From contig CAKZJW010000076.1 in the NCBI GenBank assembly GCA_937120495.1, forward strand, positions 1 to 64,000: a stretch of DNA of 64,000 nt, in the 5' to 3' direction. Origin of the DNA: an uncultured Oligoflexia bacterium. Its GTDB lineage: Bacteria; Bdellovibrionota; Bacteriovoracia; Bacteriovoracales; Bacteriovoracaceae. The stretch's first letter is position 1; every line of letters starts with the position of its first letter. The position numbers were made by a program, and so were the translations under genes. Shown here piece by piece: positions 52,074-63,336 of this stretch. The notes under the pieces were generated by a model, which had not been told where the DNA came from, ran no database searches, and was given only the letters and a program-made list of their open reading frames with translations.

Positions 52074-52221
52074 TTTTTTCTCCTTTGCTACTTTTAAGTA
52101 TGCATTAACTCAGTAAGTTGTAGAAATTGTTTGTTTTTATGAGGGCATAGAGAAAAAAGATGATCTATATATTAAATATGTAATATAATTATATATTGAC
52201 TCACTTATAGAAGAGGTGATT

Positions 52222-53223
52222 ATGATAAAAATTTTATTGTTAATAATAAGTGCAAATATTTATGCTGGAGCTATTGATTGGAAAACAAAAAAGCCAATTA
52301 AGAATTTGAAAAAGAAGTTAACATCATTACAGTATGAAGTGACTCAAGAAGAAGCTACAGAGAAACCTTTTCAAAATAAATATTGGGATAACAAAGCTGA
52401 AGGGATCTATGTTGATATCGTTTCAAAAGAGCCATTGTTTAGTTCTGTAGATAAATTTAAATCAGGGACTGGGTGGCCCAGTTTTACTAAGAAGTTAGTT
52501 AAGTCTAATATAAAGGAAGAAACAGATTTTAAATTAATCTATCCAAGAACAGAAGTTAGATCAAAATTTGGTGACTCGCATCTTGGCCATTTATTTAAGG
52601 ATGGACCAAAGCCAACAGGACTTAGATATTGTATTAACTCCGCAAGTTTAGAGTTTATACCTAAAGAAGATCTTGTTAAAAGAGGTTATGGTGAGTTTGA
52701 AAAGCAATTTATAAAAAAGGAAAAAAAATTGAAAAGTGCATATTTAGCAGGTGGTTGTTTTTGGGGAATGGAAAAGTATCTAAGAAAGCTACCAGGTGTG
52801 CTAGCAACAGAAGTAGGATATACAGGTGGAGATAACGAGCGAGCACAATATGAGCATGTTAAAACTGGCTCTACTGGGCATGCTGAAGCTATTCGCGTTG
52901 ATTACGATGAAAATAAATTGAGCTATAAAGAAATAATCCGTTACTTTTTTCGTATTCACGATCCAACGACTTTAAATCAACAGGGTAATGATAAGGGAAC
53001 GCAATATAGAAGTTCAGTTTTTACAAACGATGAAAAAGAAAAAAGCATTGTTCTTGATATGATAAGAAAAATCGATCAAAGTAAATCTTTGTCAAAACCA
53101 GTTGTAACAAAAATTGAGCCTCTAAGTAAGTTCATAGATGCTGAAGATTTTCATCAAGATTACTTAGTTAAAAATCCTAATGGCTATAATTGCCATCTTC
53201 TAAGGCCAGACTTTAAGTTTTAG
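52222..53223 (+). CDS. Periplasmic methionine sulfoxide reductase MsrB-MsrA fusion
   Basis: About 333 residues from ATG 52222 (AGAGG five bases upstream). A signal peptide (NIYAGA) is followed by an MsrB domain: [25 protein letters not shown] and the catalytic Cys137 in [12 protein letters not shown]. The usual zinc CxxC pairs are missing. An MsrA domain follows with catalytic Cys179 in [12 protein letters not shown], then GYTGGD and [10 protein letters not shown]. The B-then-A order with export signal indicates repair of both sulfoxide stereoisomers in envelope proteins. Reductant supply would need a membrane thiol carrier, not in the window. Confidence 0.93.
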
Positions 53224-53309: not shown

Positions 53310-55319
53310 ATGAAGAAAATTTTATTTTTTACATTCATATTAGCTTTTAGTCATGCTTTTGCTTATGACTTTAAGGAATGCAAAGAGAAATTCATCTCAG
53401 AATTTCAAACGTCTTTATCTAAGGACCGTGGTCTTGTTGAAGCTCAGTTGACTTTAACAGGCTTAAAGCTCGCATCAAAAATTAAAAATCGTAAGGGGCT
53501 TCAATCTTCTTCAATTGAATCTTATGCAAAATCAATAATTGGAAACAAAACAATTGAGCGACTGAGACTAAACTCAAATATAGAGCAAGAAGTATTAGAG
53601 CTAGGAAACAAATATCTAGGTAAATCAAAATTAATTGATCCAAAGATACAACTGGAATTAATAACACAGAAAAAGAAATTATCTGATAAAGATATTTCAT
53701 TAATGATGGTAGGGCTACAGACAACGTGGAAGGACAAAGATGACTTTGGCTTTTCTGAATCAGATATTGCATTCACAGCTTTCATCTCTTCTGCTTCTAG
53801 GGTAGCAGATGGGAAAGACTCATATATACTAAGTAACTTTGTAAATAAAGTCCTTCAAAGTCAAAATCCAAAAGAAGAAGCTGCATTATTTAAAAAAGCA
53901 AAGCTTGATATTAAAAGAGAAATTAACAGAATTAAGGGCAAGGTTTATTCTCGCTTTAAGGATGAATGCTTGGATTACTTTGGAAACTCTGATTTTGAAG
54001 GACAGAAAGCCTCTATTTTTAATATAGGACTTTGTAAAAAGAGTGAAGATGAAATTCTTAATGAAACTCTTTTAAAATCAATTGAGCGTATTGTTTCTCA
54101 AAATGAACTCTCTATTAAGATAGATCCACTTAAAACGAATGTATTAATCCAGAAACCTAAAACTCAGGCTGATTTTAGAGAATTACAAGATAGAATCAAC
54201 TCGTTTGATTCGGATAAGAATAAGATTATTTCTTTCTATAAAGAGGGAATGGCTAAAACAAAATGCGAAGGCTTTGTCATTGTCGATAAAAAGAATACGA
54301 TAACAACTCTTTATACCTCAGATGGAAATGAGGTAATGACTGTTAAGTCTATAATTGGAAAAGGAAAAATGAATGAATTTAAGAGATTTAATCCAGATTC
54401 GGTTTTAAGAAAATGGCCAGTAAAAGACTCATCAGGAAAGATCCTTAAAAGAAACGGAAAAGTCCATTATAAATATAGTAAAACGACAGGAGCTGGAACA
54501 TACTTTCTGGATAAAACACTAACCCCCCAAGAAAGAGGGAAGAGTAATCGAAATTACACAGGCGAGTTTAACGATAGAGTAATGGTACTATATTCTAAAA
54601 ATAAAGATGGAAGGCGAGAAGAAGTTCAGGCAATCCATGGAATCCCAGGAAGTGATTGGATAAGTAATAGAGAAGAGAGAATGAGCTCTTTTGATACCGA
54701 AGACGCTTCTATGAAACTCTCTACAGGTTGTGTAAACCTTGAGGGCTATAGCTATGATATTATAGATGAATTTTTAGGAAATAGTTGTCCCATTTATATT
54801 TTACCTGAAGATGAACAAAATTTTTATAATATTAAAAATGGTGAACTCGAATTTACAACTAACAATCAGATAAGGAAGAGAGATAAAGAACATTCTGAGA
54901 TGATAAAAAGTACCGGAGCTACAAGCAAGGATCCATCTAATATTAATACATATCGATATACCCCAATTAATAAGGAAAATAAAATTTTAAGACCAATTGG
55001 TGAAGCTTCTAAAAATAAAGTTCTTCTCACGCTTATTGAAGATAAAGAGAATCTATATAAGAGAGCTAAGCAGATGGAAAGTGATGACTTTGAAGACTTA
55101 CTTTCACTAACGGCATCAATAACAAGTGATGAAACTCAAGCTACAAAAGTGTTCATTGACCTTTATAATTCTATGTATAGAGAAAGTCTCAAAGAACAAA
55201 TTTCACGTTCACTAAAAAGAAAAATGATATTAGAGAGGTACAGCAAAGATTTTGATAGTTCAATTGATTCAAAGAAAATACTTATTAAGTCTTTAAAGGT
55301 GGATTATGAACTTGAATAA
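53310..55319 (+). CDS. Secreted YkuD-type L,D-transpeptidase with long N-terminal domain
   Basis: A 669-residue protein with a signal peptide ending SHAFA. A helical N-terminal region of about 290 residues precedes a YkuD catalytic domain (about 318-500): CEGFVIVDKKNTITTLYTSD, TGAGTYFLDKTL, the His443-Gly of AIHGIPG, and LSTGCVNLEG with nucleophile Cys474. This is the HG...[ST]xGCxN signature of L,D-transpeptidases, which form or remove peptidoglycan crosslinks and attachments. The C-terminal 170 residues are helical. It overlaps the paralogue downstream by 14 bases. Confidence 0.85.
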   Translation: MKKILFFTFILAFSHAFAYDFKECKEKFISEFQTSLSKDRGLVEAQLTLTGLKLASKIKNRKGLQSSSIESYAKSIIGNKTIERLRLNSNIEQEVLELGNKYLGKSKLIDPKIQLELITQKKKLSDKDISLMMVGLQTTWKDKDDFGFSESDIAFTAFISSASRVADGKDSYILSNFVNKVLQSQNPKEEAALFKKAKLDIKREINRIKGKVYSRFKDECLDYFGNSDFEGQKASIFNIGLCKKSEDEILNETLLKSIERIVSQNELSIKIDPLKTNVLIQKPKTQADFRELQDRINSFDSDKNKIISFYKEGMAKTKCEGFVIVDKKNTITTLYTSDGNEVMTVKSIIGKGKMNEFKRFNPDSVLRKWPVKDSSGKILKRNGKVHYKYSKTTGAGTYFLDKTLTPQERGKSNRNYTGEFNDRVMVLYSKNKDGRREEVQAIHGIPGSDWISNREERMSSFDTEDASMKLSTGCVNLEGYSYDIIDEFLGNSCPIYILPEDEQNFYNIKNGELEFTTNNQIRKRDKEHSEMIKSTGATSKDPSNINTYRYTPINKENKILRPIGEASKNKVLLTLIEDKENLYKRAKQMESDDFEDLLSLTASITSDETQATKVFIDLYNSMYRESLKEQISRSLKRKMILERYSKDFDSSIDSKKILIKSLKVDYELE

Positions 55320-58300
55320 AGTGATTCTACTTCTTTTAATTAGCTTTTTTTCTTCTCCTACATTTGCAGGTAACGATTGTCTTGATTCTTTAGATGCCAT
55401 TGTTCGTGGTGATGAAGTCAAAGAGGAGAAGCTTCAAGACTTTTTGAAACTACAGTCTGAATTAACTTTGCATAAATTATCTTATGCACTTTTAAAAAAT
55501 AGTAAAAAAGATGGGTTTCGAGTTGAGAATAAAATTCTGAACCTTCTAGAACAAATGAAATCTGAGAAAGAGTCAGATGAGAATTTTAAACGAATCTACG
55601 AATTGTTTGAAAATCCAAATAATAAACTTTCAAGAACTGCCTTGGCCGAAGTATTACCCTATGTTTCAAATATACTAAATGAACAGAATAAGGAATTAGA
55701 TCCAGGGAAAAGAGCTTTGTTGAATCTCGGTGAAAGTGACATAAAGATGCTTGCGATTCTTTTTGAAAAAGAAAAAAAAGATGAACTTGGAAACTATGCT
55801 CATCTTCTTTCAAAAAATAAAAACTCAAACAATAGTATTTTAAACTTTACTAAGATCATAAATTCTTCAATTCGCAACACTAATAGTGACAAAGAAAGTA
55901 TCCTTACGGTAATTCAAAAACGCTTAAAGGAAGTGCAGAAAAAGGCTCAAGAACTACTTGAAGAAATCCTTGTCGGAGCAAATTGTAATAATAAAAAAAT
56001 CTCATGTGACTTAGATCATTCTGAAAGTATTATTCCTGAGATGAATTTAGTTTCAATTCTAAAGGCAGTTGATAAAGTTGATTCTTTGGATAAACAAAAG
56101 TATCTACGTTACGACGATGTTTGGCTTCACACGAAAAGAAGCACTAATAAACAAAGAAAGCAGCGTTCAAAAGCTTCAAGGGTCAAAAAAGAAGTCGTAA
56201 AAGCTATTAGTAATGAAGATTTCGTTCATGACTATCTTATAGATCATGTTTTAGATCACATGCCTTATTTTTTAACTCGAGAAGAACTTAAGGCTGATAA
56301 ATCCTTAACTCTTTCCCTGGCCCAAGCTATAGACTTGGGGAATCTAGCAAAAAAGGGAGAAGAACGAGTCTTCATTTATAAAGGGACGAAGTATATTATC
56401 CCTGAACTTTGGAATGAAAACTATACAGGTAATAGACTTAGTAAAAAGTTTTGGAAGGCGATTGATGATGTCGATAGCTTCTTTACTGGGGATGATTATG
56501 TAGTACCTCAAGGAAATGGAGTTAAAGATAGTGAAAAAGAAAGCTTCATAGATATGTGGCAAAATAAAAAAGAGCATAAGAATCAAAAGTATGCATTTTC
56601 TTTTAAAGGGAAGCTGTTTTCAATTGAAACGGGGAAGTTAATTGCCCCAACAAAAGAATCTCTACTTTCTATCAAAGCAAAAGATCAAACAATTACAGAG
56701 ATCGACTTTCATGAAGATAAACTCAAGGATATGACTATTGAGATAAAAAATGGAAAGAGATCATATATCAAAGGTAATAAAGCATTTCATATATCGGGCG
56801 TTGAAGTTAAGTTAGATAAAGAATATGCAAGAGCCAAGAAAAAATATAATGAAGGAAATGCTCAGGCAAATAAGGAAGTAAAAACTCTAGAGTTTCCAAA
56901 ACTAGATGATGTAAAAAGTTTTATTGCGAAAAATCCTTCTATGAAAAGTAATATATCTAAGGCTCTTGCGGATCGAGATAAGGGAGTCGCATCTGGTGAT
57001 AAGCTTGTTAACTTAATAACTTTAAAAGTAGTTACAAATGGAGAGGCAAGCAAGATTGTAGATGATTATAGAGAAAAATTCTATCTTCCATCTTCTTCAA
57101 ATCTTAATAAGAGTACAGCCTTTATTAATAGAAATGCTCAAGCAGTGTTAAACGGAAAAGATTATTTTTATGTAGATAACAAAAAATATGATACAAGAAC
57201 AGCGATTGAAAAAAGTTCAAATAGACGTATTAGTTCAAGTTCTAAAGGTTACTTACCGCACTCGGAAGTTATTCGACTCAGAGATGAAATTAATTCTCAA
57301 AAAAATGAAGTTGATAAGATTAAAATGTATCACAAAAACTTTGAACAAAAATGTTCAGAGTATACCGTGATTGATAAAAATAGAAGCTTATTTACAGTCT
57401 ATTCTAATACAGGTCAGATCATCTTTGAGAAAGAAGCTCTTATTGGTAGTAAAGAAGGGGATGAGAGAACCCTTTATCGCGATAATGAAGGAAAAGATAC
57501 AAACAATAAAACAGGAGCAGGAATTTACTTCATAGGTGATAATATTCTGAACCTATATAAGCCTGAGTTTGAAGGCAATGCTCTTAGTTTAAACACTCAA
57601 AACAAGAATTCTAGACTAAGTATTTCTCAAATCTCAACTAGTACTCCTCAAAGAATGTTTTTATTCAATGATAATGATCCTACTAACAATAGAGTTACTA
57701 ATGGAGGAGTTGTTCTTCAAAAAGAAGATATGAAAGAATTTATAAAGAACTTTTCAAAAAAAGATTGTCCTTTATATGTTTTACCTGAAACTAATAGTGC
57801 TGAATTTTTGTTGTCAGAAAATCAATTAGTATTTAAACCAAAGTGTAAAAACTGTGACAAAAACTTTAATATAAAAACCCCTACAGTTGAACCAAAACAA
57901 ATTAAAGCTTATATAGTAGATGACAGATATAAAAGTGAGCTCTCTGAGAGATTTGTAGCCGCTCTCGTGGCAGAAAAAGAAGATATGTTACCCCTTCTTG
58001 GAATTACAAATGAAGAGTATGACGAATTGATGAAGCTGTCTTTTGGTATTCTTGGTGTTGAGTCAGACTTTGCAACATCAAAGCTTTATAAATTTAAAGA
58101 AACAGAAATTGGTCAAGCTGGAATTGATGTTCTTAGGGATGATCGAATATTTGTTTCTCCTATTTCCCTTCCACTTTCTCCATTCACAATTAATCCTGTA
58201 AAGTCTCTCTTTGGAGATAATGCGAATAATAGTAGAGGCCCAACTCAAATAAAGCATGTGGATGACTACTTGAAAGGTCGTTATAAAAAAATGGTGACAA

Positions 58301-58554
58301 CTGGAACTTTAGATAATCCTAAAAATGCGGCAATCGCTACAATGTTTGTCTTAGCAAATAAGCTGAAAAGTCTAAAAAATATAGAAAAGAATCATCCTAA
58401 TATAACTTCTGCAAACCGAATGGAATACCTTTATTATTTGTATATGGGATCAACTGATCAAATAAAAAATAAAGCGGCTACGCCAAAGTTAAATTCTAAA
58501 ACGCTAGAAGTTCTGAGTTATTCAAAAGGACTTGTAATAGATACGAAATATTAA
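55306..58554 (+). CDS. Paralogue with inactive YkuD-like domain and transglycosylase-like C terminus
   Basis: A 1082-residue secreted protein (signal peptide ending PTFA; SD AAAGGTGG). Residues about 682-826 align with the upstream L,D-transpeptidase: SEYTVIDKNRSLFTVYSNTG, KTGAGIYFIGDN and DCPLYVLPE correspond block by block. However, the nucleophile Cys becomes Gly801 in VTNGGVVLQ and the HG pair is absent. Residues about 878-1080 look like a lysozyme/SLT-type domain: FGILGVESDFATS with candidate catalytic Glu919 and NNSRGPTQIKHV. The long middle part is unassigned. A bound but non-catalytic YkuD domain could target a muramidase to peptidoglycan; this is inference. Confidence 0.7.
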   Translation: MNLNKVILLLLISFFSSPTFAGNDCLDSLDAIVRGDEVKEEKLQDFLKLQSELTLHKLSYALLKNSKKDGFRVENKILNLLEQMKSEKESDENFKRIYELFENPNNKLSRTALAEVLPYVSNILNEQNKELDPGKRALLNLGESDIKMLAILFEKEKKDELGNYAHLLSKNKNSNNSILNFTKIINSSIRNTNSDKESILTVIQKRLKEVQKKAQELLEEILVGANCNNKKISCDLDHSESIIPEMNLVSILKAVDKVDSLDKQKYLRYDDVWLHTKRSTNKQRKQRSKASRVKKEVVKAISNEDFVHDYLIDHVLDHMPYFLTREELKADKSLTLSLAQAIDLGNLAKKGEERVFIYKGTKYIIPELWNENYTGNRLSKKFWKAIDDVDSFFTGDDYVVPQGNGVKDSEKESFIDMWQNKKEHKNQKYAFSFKGKLFSIETGKLIAPTKESLLSIKAKDQTITEIDFHEDKLKDMTIEIKNGKRSYIKGNKAFHISGVEVKLDKEYARAKKKYNEGNAQANKEVKTLEFPKLDDVKSFIAKNPSMKSNISKALADRDKGVASGDKLVNLITLKVVTNGEASKIVDDYREKFYLPSSSNLNKSTAFINRNAQAVLNGKDYFYVDNKKYDTRTAIEKSSNRRISSSSKGYLPHSEVIRLRDEINSQKNEVDKIKMYHKNFEQKCSEYTVIDKNRSLFTVYSNTGQIIFEKEALIGSKEGDERTLYRDNEGKDTNNKTGAGIYFIGDNILNLYKPEFEGNALSLNTQNKNSRLSISQISTSTPQRMFLFNDNDPTNNRVTNGGVVLQKEDMKEFIKNFSKKDCPLYVLPETNSAEFLLSENQLVFKPKCKNCDKNFNIKTPTVEPKQIKAYIVDDRYKSELSERFVAALVAEKEDMLPLLGITNEEYDELMKLSFGILGVESDFATSKLYKFKETEIGQAGIDVLRDDRIFVSPISLPLSPFTINPVKSLFGDNANNSRGPTQIKHVDDYLKGRYKKMVTTGTLDNPKNAAIATMFVLANKLKSLKNIEKNHPNITSANRMEYLYYLYMGSTDQIKNKAATPKLNSKTLEVLSYSKGLVIDTKY

Positions 58555-60780: not shown

Positions 60781-60928
60781 GTTTAAGTCCCCGAAAATAC
60801 ATTGAATTATATCTTTTTTTTGAAATCTTTTCAGTTTTCTTGAGTGGTGCATCATCGCGTGCTAGAACCTGCCTACGGAAAGATACCTTGTAGGTGGCTT
60901 TGGTTTCTCAAGGCTAATTGGAGTGAAT

Positions 60929-61885
60929 ATGAATAAAGTTTTAATGTTGTTAAGCGTATCAGCTTTTTCTTTAACTGCTAGTGCAGACCCTAAGATAATT
61001 TATGGAGACGACAATCGTGTTGATGTCTATGCTTCGACGAATCCTGAATTTGTTAAGCTATCTAAGTCGACAGCGGCAATGATTTCAAATTCAAAGATGA
61101 GTAAATCCATCCTTGGATTAAACTTTAAGCTTGATCCTGCTACACTGACGCAGAAAATGAGAGCGTGTAGCGATGAAAGGTTTGCATCTCAACCAGCAGT
61201 TGCTCGTTGTTCGGGGTTTCTCATTTCTGACAAACTTCTTGTTACAGCCGGACATTGTATGAGAAAGCCATTTTTAGATCCTAAGACTGGAAAAATGGTT
61301 GATGACTGTAAAAATAATAGCTGGGTCTTTGACTATAAAATGGACAGTGAAACTGAAATTAATCTAAATAAATCAGCAAGTACTGTTTATAAATGTAATA
61401 AAATTATCTCTAGGGAGCTAAATGACCAAACTCTTAATGATTATGCTCTAATTGAACTAGATAGAGCCGTAACAGATAGAGAGCCTCTAAAATTTAGAAA
61501 AAGAGGTAAAATTAAAAGTGGATCTGAAATTGTTGTTATTGGTCACCCAAGTGGATTGCCAACAAAAATAACAGACGATGCTCAAGTAAAAGACTTAAAG
61601 AAAAATTACTTTACTGCAAATCTTGATACATATGGCGGAAATTCAGGTTCTGCAGTGTTTAACGTATCAACAGGTGAAGTTGAAGGAATCCTTGTACGAG
61701 GAGATACTGATTATAAGTACAGATATAGAGGGATGACTCTTACTGCGGAAGATATGTATTATTTGACTTCATTGATGCCAGTTGATCCAAAAGAGATTTG
61801 TATGGAATCAAATAAAGTTTCTCATGATAAAGCAGGTGAGAGTGTTACTTATATTACAAATATAAAAGAGATTAAGAACTTATAG
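60929..61885 (+). CDS. Secreted trypsin-like serine protease
   Basis: About 318 residues from ATG 60929 (TTGGAG five bases upstream; GTG 60923 is an alternative). A signal peptide ends LTASA. The chymotrypsin-fold triad is complete: His109 in LLVTAGHCM, Asp171 in NDYALIELD and Ser239 in TYGGNSGSAVF. IVVIGHPSGLP precedes the serine, as in Glu-V8/S1B-like and DUF-type bacterial trypsins. A propeptide-like region of about 70 residues precedes the first Cys. Secreted proteases suit a predatory lifestyle, but self-maintenance is possible. Confidence 0.88.
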   Translation: MNKVLMLLSVSAFSLTASADPKIIYGDDNRVDVYASTNPEFVKLSKSTAAMISNSKMSKSILGLNFKLDPATLTQKMRACSDERFASQPAVARCSGFLISDKLLVTAGHCMRKPFLDPKTGKMVDDCKNNSWVFDYKMDSETEINLNKSASTVYKCNKIISRELNDQTLNDYALIELDRAVTDREPLKFRKRGKIKSGSEIVVIGHPSGLPTKITDDAQVKDLKKNYFTANLDTYGGNSGSAVFNVSTGEVEGILVRGDTDYKYRYRGMTLTAEDMYYLTSLMPVDPKEICMESNKVSHDKAGESVTYITNIKEIKNL

Positions 61886-61892
61886 AATAAAA

Positions 61893-62693
61893 TTATTTCG
61901 TAACTAATGAGACCTTGAGAATACTGTTCCATCTATTGTGAGCAACTATTATCAAGGTCTTTATTTTTTTTTCAATTGGAAAATTCAACTTTGTTATTCT
62001 CATTGCGATAGTATTTATCCTAATATTTAGCTCGTTGAGATTATTAATAAAGACTTGTTTTCTGTTCCTCGTTAAAACGTACTTCAAAACTGGATTTATA
62101 AAGTGAAGAGTGTACTTCTCAAGCTCTTTTTTGAAACGATTGTCACAAGCTGAGAGTAAAAAAGTATCAAGCTTTTCTATTGCTGTGAGGGTAAACTTCT
62201 TTAAGTTAAGAGTCGAGAACGAATCATCCTTTGACAGGGTAGCATTTAATTTCAGTGATCGAAGCTCCTGTAGAGCTTTAATTATTTGAAGACGAAAGCT
62301 TGTTTTATGTGATTTTATTAAAATTTTCTCATCCATTGATAGATACTTTATTTCTTTTATATCGATCTTCTTTTTTAAAACGTTAATTATATCTTCAAGT
62401 CGGCTTTCAAGCTGGTCTAATGCTTGGTTGCAATTATTAGCCTGCTTAACAAAGCACTTCTTAGGTAGACGAAATTCAAGTTTATAAAGGTCTGTTTTTA
62501 TATTTAACAGAGAAGAAACGTCCTTCAATTGTGGGGTAAGTCCAACTAAAAGAGATTTGTAACCTTGGGTTATACTTTTTAGTTGAGGTTTTACATAGCG
62601 ATTAAACTCATAGTTTGTAATATCAATTTCCTTTGCTGTATATGCAAAAGTGTTAAAGGAAAAAAATACTAAAATAAAGAAAGTCTTAACCAT
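61893..62693 (-). CDS. Secreted helical protein of unknown function downstream of ileS
   Basis: A 266-residue protein with a signal peptide ending NTFAY and a helical, lysine-rich mature part containing three Cys (CFVKQANNC and a later SACDN). Family not recognised. Its ATG lies inside the end of the scramblase-like gene (8-base overlap), making it the third gene of an ileS-led operon. It is convergent with the protease gene. Confidence 0.6.
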   Translation of the reverse strand: MVKTFFILVFFSFNTFAYTAKEIDITNYEFNRYVKPQLKSITQGYKSLLVGLTPQLKDVSSLLNIKTDLYKLEFRLPKKCFVKQANNCNQALDQLESRLEDIINVLKKKIDIKEIKYLSMDEKILIKSHKTSFRLQIIKALQELRSLKLNATLSKDDSFSTLNLKKFTLTAIEKLDTFLLSACDNRFKKELEKYTLHFINPVLKYVLTRNRKQVFINNLNELNIRINTIAMRITKLNFPIEKKIKTLIIVAHNRWNSILKVSLVTK

Positions 62694-63336
62694 TTAAAAA
62701 ATCCAATAAGCTAGCACTTCCTTGATTATTCTCAAAATAGTCAAAGTCTATAGATATACCACAACTAAAGAGAAGAACTTTTTGTTCTGGTGTGAGACTA
62801 TTATTTAGCTTAATTAGATATCCATCACTGTCTGTAAAAACTTCTTTTACAAAACCTTGCCACTTTTTTGTAATAATACCTACATTTTGGTTCATATTAT
62901 TAAAAATTGGAAAGCTCCATATCCTCCAAAAAGGACTTTTAACTCTAAATATTTCTCGTTCGCTAGAGTCTAGTACTGAATATACCTTAGAGAACAGTGA
63001 AAAACGTCTGTGGATTGATCCATACTTTTTGTTTTCTAATTGAATATTGAGATCAGAGAAAAACCAAAAGAAACGTCTATTAAATTGAAGAAGTTTCTCT
63101 CCCGAATTATCCATCACAATAATCTCAAATGGCCTATGTGACCTTAAAAAAATGCGCTTCAATGTATGAAGTATCCCGCTTCCTTGTTCAATGATAAAGC
63201 CAAGCTCGTTTTTTTGTTCATCTAGGATTTGGTATTTGTTTTTTGTTTCAAATCCACTGAAGATTTCAATCCATTCTTTTTTCTGTTGAATTATAAAGGC
63301 ATCACTTTTTTTAATGAAATCTTCGATAGAACTCAT
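62686..63336 (-). CDS. Phospholipid scramblase-like (LURP-one-related) protein
   Basis: A 216-residue protein with the scramblase/tubby-like beta-barrel pattern: NKYQILDEQKNELGFIIEQ, HRPFEIIVMDNSGEKLLQFN, RFFWFFSDLNIQ, YSVLDSSEREIFRVKSPFW and NVGIITKKWQGF, i.e. repeating 'Y.i.d..g..' strands ending in a Trp-rich segment. The final hydrophobic helix seen in the family is weak here. Bacterial members are poorly characterised. ATG 63336 overlaps the ileS stop (ATGA). Confidence 0.65.
   Translation of the reverse strand: MSSIEDFIKKSDAFIIQQKKEWIEIFSGFETKNKYQILDEQKNELGFIIEQGSGILHTLKRIFLRSHRPFEIIVMDNSGEKLLQFNRRFFWFFSDLNIQLENKKYGSIHRRFSLFSKVYSVLDSSEREIFRVKSPFWRIWSFPIFNNMNQNVGIITKKWQGFVKEVFTDSDGYLIKLNNSLTPEQKVLLFSCGISIDFDYFENNQGSASLLDFLNG

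Follow-up and report, generated by a model that had tools for sequence, protein, structure and literature searches.

The window is a 64,000-nucleotide (nt) stretch of contig CAKZJW010000076.1, from the draft genome (150 contigs) of an uncultured Oligoflexia bacterium of the Bacteriovoracaceae. Two overlapping genes on its forward strand, P0001 and P0002, encode proteins related to the YkuD L,D-transpeptidases. A preliminary description of this DNA saw them as an enzyme coupled to a pseudo-enzyme. An intact YkuD site (P0001) does lie beside a dead one (P0002), but the evidence does not support treating P0002 as a whole as a pseudo-enzyme, because it also carries an apparently intact lysozyme-superfamily domain. 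This glycosidase-like domain, the two kinds of N-terminal domain (N-domain) and the fused bifunctional homologues described below had been missed.

Domains and active sites of the gene pair

The features of the pair are as follows (signal segments were judged by eye):

53310-55319, + strand: P0001 open reading frame (ORF), 669 amino acids (aa), ATG start; hydrophobic signal-like N-terminus, type-A N-domain, YkuD domain with His and Cys, C-terminal tail (from the ORF, profile matches and AlphaFold2 (AF2) model)
53367-54149, + strand: P0001 type-A N-domain (aa ~20-280)
54210-54815, + strand: P0001 YkuD domain, active-looking (aa 301-502)
54636-54638, + strand: P0001 His443, codon CAT, putative catalytic residue
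54729-54731, + strand: P0001 Cys474, codon TGT, putative nucleophile
54987-55169, + strand: weak remnant of a glycosidase start in P0001 (aa ~560-620)
55294-55319, + strand: P0001/P0002 junction, AAAGGTGG, with the P0002 ATG at 55306 and the P0001 TAA at 55317-55319 (from the sequence)
55306-58554, + strand: P0002 ORF, 1082 aa, ATG start; signal-like segment, type-B N-domain, linker, inactivated YkuD domain, GH23-like domain
55369-56205, + strand: P0002 type-B N-domain (aa 22-300)
57307-57801, + strand: P0002 inactivated YkuD domain (aa 668-832)
57625-57627, + strand: P0002 Ser774, codon TCT, aligned at the catalytic-His position
57706-57708, + strand: P0002 Gly801, codon GGA, aligned at the nucleophile-Cys position
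57883-58539, + strand: P0002 lysozyme-superfamily (GH23-like) domain (aa 860-1078, ~220 residues)
58060-58062, + strand: P0002 Glu919, putative catalytic residue, in an ES motif (GVESDF)
58099-58101, + strand: P0002 Glu932, conserved second acid, 13 residues past Glu919

The two ORFs lie at the place given in the preliminary description, and they overlap by 14 nt. A Shine-Dalgarno-like sequence lies directly 5' of the P0002 ATG (in AAAGGTGG), and the two genes are apparently translationally coupled. The similarity between the two proteins is well above chance (BLASTP E-value: 2e-11). An Rfam search of the region of the pair gave no match, and a promoter and terminator scan of the same region gave counts no different from those in shuffled sequence.

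In P0001, H443-G444 (CAT GGA at 54636) and T472-G473-C474 (TGT at 54729) are exactly where they had been placed previously. His443 and Cys474 align with residues that are invariant in 17 active relatives; Asn476 occupies C+2, where all active relatives also have Asn, and the H, P, R783, C and N positions (P0002 numbering) are all kept. A YkuD profile built from active relatives only scores P0001 at 86.4 bits, and the AF2 model (predicted local distance difference test (pLDDT) 62.6 overall, higher in the YkuD core) matches B. subtilis YkuD (4a1i) with a Z-score of 11.9 over 113 residues at 2.4 Å. The Pfam YkuD model (PF03734) does not match P0001 up to an E-value of 10, and is matched by 14 of the 29 rows of the family alignment A3 at E ≤ 1 (best E-value: 2.4e-9); P0001 is therefore assigned to the YkuD fold by homology and fold and not by the Pfam model. 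Beyond this domain, a segment resembling the start of the glycosidase scores 10.3 bits against the lytic transglycosylase profile, a score reached in 0 of 1967 shuffles of aa 505-669 and in 6 of 1933 and 2 of 1875 shuffles of shorter cuts. The remainder of the glycosidase domain, including SRGxTQIK, is absent.

The same YkuD profile scores P0002 higher (129.6 bits), and the AF2 model of residues 640-1082 (pLDDT 88.6, predicted template modelling score 0.85) matches 4a1i with a Z-score of 13.3 over 112 residues at 2.0 Å. These models support a YkuD fold in both proteins, including the second, for which the preliminary description had allowed that the fold might prove to be a different one. It had correctly reported that this protein lacks the HG and has Gly in place of Cys: Ser774 and Gly801 occupy the two positions, and V and S stand where active members have N803 and P777. 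We defined 33 conserved YkuD columns, each kept in at least 85% of the 17 active relatives. P0002 keeps 27 of them and has lost D668, A772, H774, P777, C801 and N803, so that five of the seven columns in the active-site loops (772-777, 800-803) are lost as against one of 26 elsewhere (p ~5e-4, calculated by hand). H774, P777, C801 and N803 are also all lost in the nearest relatives, L099, L100 and L121, in which the residues at H774/C801 are G/Q, G/N and A/D, respectively. The inactivated domains of P0002 and these relatives have largely retained the Cys pair 683/821 and the TGAG and LPE motifs. Judged by alignment, the pattern fits a scaffold kept without catalysis; P0002 is predicted to have the YkuD fold without working as an L,D-transpeptidase by any known mechanism.

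The C-terminal domain of P0002 (aa 860-1078) is helical and mostly well predicted in the same model. Among the structural matches listed, its best was MltC (4cfo; Z-score 10.3, 145 residues, 3.5 Å); the list is filled by YkuD structures, and the absence of other transglycosylases from it carries no weight. Phage LT_GEWL and SLT models were among the weak Foldseek matches. The motifs are near-invariant: Glu919 is present in 29 of 29 aligned sequences, and S976, G978, T980, Q981, I982 and K983 of SRGPTQIK are invariant in the family. Glu932 is conserved in 28 of the 29 sequences of one alignment and in 20 of 20 in another. The SLT profile (PF01464) had no significant match in A3, one member reaching an E-value of 0.07. 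Model and motifs point to a GH23-like fold, and P0002 probably cleaves glycan while its YkuD module is inactivated.

Relatives and the two lineages

Relatives were sought across the order and the phylum, and in named contigs. Those on named contigs are from Bacteriovoracaceae, Halobacteriovoraceae and other Bdellovibrionota, in each case a metagenome assembly. A joint YkuD-glycosidase profile had matches in 88 of the 368 genomes searched, spread through the Bdellovibrionota (genome counts here rest on draft assemblies). The relatives were divided into classes by domain architecture. Class (i) proteins join a type-B N-domain, an active YkuD domain and an intact glycosidase domain in one chain; the 14 for which each of the three parts was read (L098, L101, L103-L108, L110, L112, L117, L060, L068, L069) have the His, the Cys and E919/Q981 intact, and L102, L109 and L059 are partial. 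Class (ii), with a type-B N-domain, a dead YkuD domain and a glycosidase, comprises P0002 and its orthologues in genomes G123 (L099) and G125 (L100, partial); L121 contains another dead YkuD domain, in a broken frame. Class (iii), the Halobacteriovorax type (L111, L113-L115, L119, L193, L135), has a type-A N-domain, a YkuD domain without catalytic loops and an intact glycosidase, while class (iv), from other families of Bdellovibrionota, has a YkuD stub (L180) or no YkuD domain together with the glycosidase. The G109 gene (class v) encodes a type-A N-domain, an active YkuD domain and the start of a glycosidase, the remainder of which is probably on another contig. P0001 (class vi) has a type-A N-domain, an active YkuD domain and only the weak remnant of a glycosidase. 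In L099 (7895-7945), one in-frame TAA falls between the N-domain and the remainder; it may mean that two proteins are encoded, that the gene is a pseudogene or that the assembly is wrong.

The combination is also found in viruses. Viral sequence L096 (4773-7175) encodes a LysM domain (E-value: 3.6e-11), a YkuD domain (29.7 bits against a Pfam cutoff of 23.4 bits) with SNGC intact, and a glycosidase. LysM-YkuD-glycosidase proteins are likewise encoded on the uncultivated viral contigs L169-L171, where neither site shows an apparent defect, and a LysM protein of "Virus NIOZ-UU157" in BFVD has the same layout by structure (E-value: 4.8e-18, TMq 0.69). Searches of phage records by tblastn with P0002 and L096 gave no match, and a scan of viral contigs with P0001 found no relative.

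The N-domain of P0001 is not recognised by the type-B profile and groups with those of G109 and the Halobacteriovorax-type proteins. A type-A profile trained on P0001, L065 and L056 matched 12 ORFs beyond those used for training (in some cases one gene was fetched twice), including L073/L115 (E-value: 2.9e-29), L113 (5.7e-26) and L193 (2.8e-20); the type-A N-domain is also present in G125. The type-B N-domain of P0002 is common to the bifunctional relatives. On this comparison, P0001 (lineage A) and P0002 (lineage B) belong to two paralogous lineages with different N-domains. Type-B N-domains also lie at the C-terminus of other secreted-looking proteins (L075, L077, L078, L079, L125, L127, L131), and Pfam gave no convincing match elsewhere in the four that were scanned (L075, L077-L079). 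The type-B N-domain seems, from this distribution, to be a mobile domain in this order.

A recent tandem duplication giving rise to P0001 and P0002 was considered and set aside, because their N-domains are from different lineages and the YkuD tree does not favour a sister grouping of the two (approximately unbiased test, p 0.053). The YkuD trees, which are unrooted, require at least two changes of YkuD state. The two-headed form (YkuD and glycosidase in one chain) is widespread and, with the reserve that the trees have no root, most likely ancestral to the pair. Since single-copy homologues in ~14-20 genomes keep both the His and the Cys, the YkuD loss in P0002 is derived.

The gene order around the pair is partly shared with related genomes. 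In G125, a P0001-type N-terminus adjoins sucB and the P0002 orthologue adjoins Sua5/RarA, with flanks as in the window, and the contigs are broken between the two genes. G123 and G124 have only the lineage-B (P0002-type) gene at this locus, P0001 not being detected, which argues that P0001 is not an obligate partner. In G018, the other genome of this genus, the Sua5/RarA region is present and both genes are absent; given these three genomes, the pair is neither obligate nor essential. The only further YkuD protein found by Pfam in the source genome (G000) is L081 (contig C120, 311-733), which has LHST...SKGCVV and a C-terminal extension and, by its GCVV motif, looks Bd1075-like.

Origin of the pair and alternative explanations

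We favour, with a probability of roughly 0.6, an origin of the pair from two-headed exported enzymes of lineages A and B, each keeping a different active site. The ancestral proteins would have been exported and would have carried a YkuD and a lysozyme-superfamily glycan-cleaving domain in one chain. Lineage A, represented by P0001, would have kept the YkuD site and lost the glycosidase, and both the weak remnant in P0001 and the G109 homologue suggest that this lineage once had the complete domain. In lineage B, represented by P0002, the glycosidase would have been retained and the YkuD domain would have lost its nucleophile and His but not its scaffold; this former YkuD head probably binds or positions stem peptides. 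P0001 and P0002 would then be co-translated and exported, with P0001 editing or cross-linking stem peptides and P0002 cutting glycan in the same wall. A broader proposal is speculative, and we hold it to be doubtful as a whole: an undescribed two-headed class would couple stem-peptide editing to glycan cutting; the YkuD head would have lost catalysis and turned into a reader of (L,D-modified) stem peptides steering the glycosidase in several predator-related lineages; and the window genome would have a separate, co-translated writer (P0001) and reader-cutter (P0002). In the open literature (subscription papers not covered), searches for YkuD-lytic transglycosylase fusions and for YkuD pseudoenzymes gave no account of the two-headed architecture.

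Several observations weigh against an origin from two-headed enzymes. First, the glycosidase-like domain of P0002 matches no Pfam family; PDB sequences searched with profiles A3 and A5 gave nothing useful (A5 matched no chain at E ≤ 10); and a comparison by HHalign with SLT domains encoded in the phylum's genomes gave a probability of 4%, though the ES motif was aligned. For these reasons, the domain is named GH23-like and not a GH23 transglycosylase. The Z-score of 10.3 to MltC can, in a helical domain, reflect a common arrangement. Second, the history of lineage A is fragmentary: the glycosidase remnant of P0001 is weak and lies where AF2 confidence is low, the two parts of the G109 gene lie at separate contig ends and are assumed to be continuous, and in G125 a contig end truncates the lineage-A gene. 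Reciprocal loss thus rests on one genome, P0001 being the only protein to lack the glycosidase. Third, P0001 sits on a long branch without a fixed place in the YkuD tree, and formal testing on that domain rejects its grouping with G109 (p 0.033), at odds with the N-domain. A separate point counts against a kept scaffold in P0002: in the nearest relatives (g46), sequence change is faster in the YkuD domain than in the glycosidase, with identities of 32% and 42%, respectively, between P0002 and L099 and of 29% and 50% between L099 and L100.

One alternative concerns the target wall and is compatible with a two-headed origin: the pair may remodel the bacterium's own wall (shape, turnover) in a role unrelated to predation. 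In Foldseek, both YkuD models come closest to the shape-determining LD-carboxypeptidases Bd1075 (from Bdellovibrio) and Pgp2, with Csd6 among the matches listed; Bd1075 works on the predator's own wall (PMC8938487), and G018 does without both genes. On the other hand, the genome has the separate Bd1075-like protein on C120, and nearly all relatives found are in Bdellovibrionota, which fits a predation role and does not show it. According to work cited in PMC11390936, Bdellovibrio uses L,D-transpeptidases on prey walls, so that such a role is possible for the pair, and taxonomy makes it plausible, as the preliminary description had proposed. Either wall may be the target; we consider action on the cell's own wall a real possibility, at somewhat less than even odds.

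The YkuD domain of P0002 may instead be decaying toward loss, with the glycosidase as the sole function and the adjacency of P0001 an incidental relic of an old tandem arrangement. The faster divergence of the YkuD domain in g46 makes slow decay a serious rival. Repeated degradation of YkuD with retention of the glycosidase, as in the Halobacteriovorax-type proteins without catalytic loops, the L180 stub and the proteins with no YkuD domain, points the same way, as do G123 and G124, in which the partner was undetected. A freely drifting domain, however, would not be expected to be of full length with a confidently predicted fold, to keep 27 of 33 conserved columns and to confine its losses almost entirely to the active-site loops. 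We regard decay as possible and rather unlikely.

A regulatory role, in which P0002 is a pseudo-enzyme that binds or controls P0001 (as a heterodimer or by substrate presentation), would draw on the apparent translational coupling across the 14-nt overlap and on the YkuD fold common to both proteins, dead in P0002. It is improbable given that P0002 has a conserved enzymatic domain of its own and that G123 and G124 have the dead-YkuD gene with P0001 undetected. Competition between the two proteins on peptidoglycan, also raised in the preliminary description, is likewise conjectural.

Sequencing error or a pseudogene as the cause of the missing Cys and His has only the draft state of the genome in its favour and can be dismissed, because five separate codon changes lie in an open frame of 1082 codons and the corresponding losses recur in L099, L100 and L121 and inactivation in other lineages. 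Homologues with an intact Cys, which the preliminary description thought might indicate a simple mutation or error, do exist and mark the loss as derived, and the several separate substitutions, matched by losses in relatives, exclude a sequencing error.

Known wall enzymes and neighbouring genes

P0001 and P0002 share the fold of the YkuD L,D-transpeptidases (B. subtilis YkuD 4a1i/1y7m, LdtMt2; Z-scores 12-13), and P0001 has in addition the His and Cys positions and the (S/T)xGC motif. P0001 differs in being too diverged for the Pfam model and in its Asn at C+2, P0002 in lacking the His and Cys, and both are longer, with unannotated N-domains. In Bd1075, Pgp2 and Csd6, an NTF2 domain is present and the residue at C+2 is Val or Ala (PMC8938487), whereas P0001 has Asn, P0002 has no Cys and no NTF2-like domain was identified in either. 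P0001 may act as an L,D-transpeptidase or as an LD-carboxypeptidase, activities that Foldseek scores do not separate.

The C-terminus of P0002 is similar to GH23 lytic transglycosylases (MltC, Slt-type) in its ES motif and S-x-G-x-x-Q pattern, and differs from them in the lack of a detectable sequence relation, in an ES-to-GxTQ stretch longer than that of Slt-type domains and in its conserved second acid (E932). DslA (Bd0314), a Bdellovibrio lysozyme, has a second acid 11 residues past the first (E143/E154; PMC7511926). It belongs to the lysozyme superfamily, as the P0002 domain is predicted to do, and both have an ES motif and a second acid (+11 in DslA, a conserved Glu at +13 in P0002); no YkuD domain has been described in DslA. 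By analogy, E932 would argue for hydrolysis, in which case the domain could be a lysozyme and not a transglycosylase. Since L,D-crosslinks inhibit lytic transglycosylases and not lysozymes (Alvarez et al. 2024, PMC11390936), which of the two P0002 is would decide whether P0001 would restrain it or have no hold on it. The authors of that study raise the question of how such enzymes become adapted to walls with L,D-crosslinks; in their system the two activities are in separate proteins, whereas here they appear to have been joined in one chain and then separated in the window genome. A family with natural variants (both sites, YkuD only, glycosidase only) would be a ready test set for this problem. 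In addition, the known predator wall enzymes gain an unannotated glycosidase-like family found widely in Bdellovibrionota, and P0002 is a clear case of a YkuD fold retained after loss of the active site.

Three further genes of the window encode proteins with recognisable domains. Directly upstream of P0001 on the same strand is a fused MsrB-MsrA methionine sulfoxide reductase gene (52216-53223, + strand) with a signal-like start. Downstream are a trypsin-like protease gene close to the pair (60923-61885, + strand; Trypsin_2 E-value: 2.9e-18), again with a signal-like start, and a gene for a 216-aa protein (62689-63336, - strand) with a strong Pfam match to Scramblase (E-value: 1e-47), a family better known from eukaryotes.

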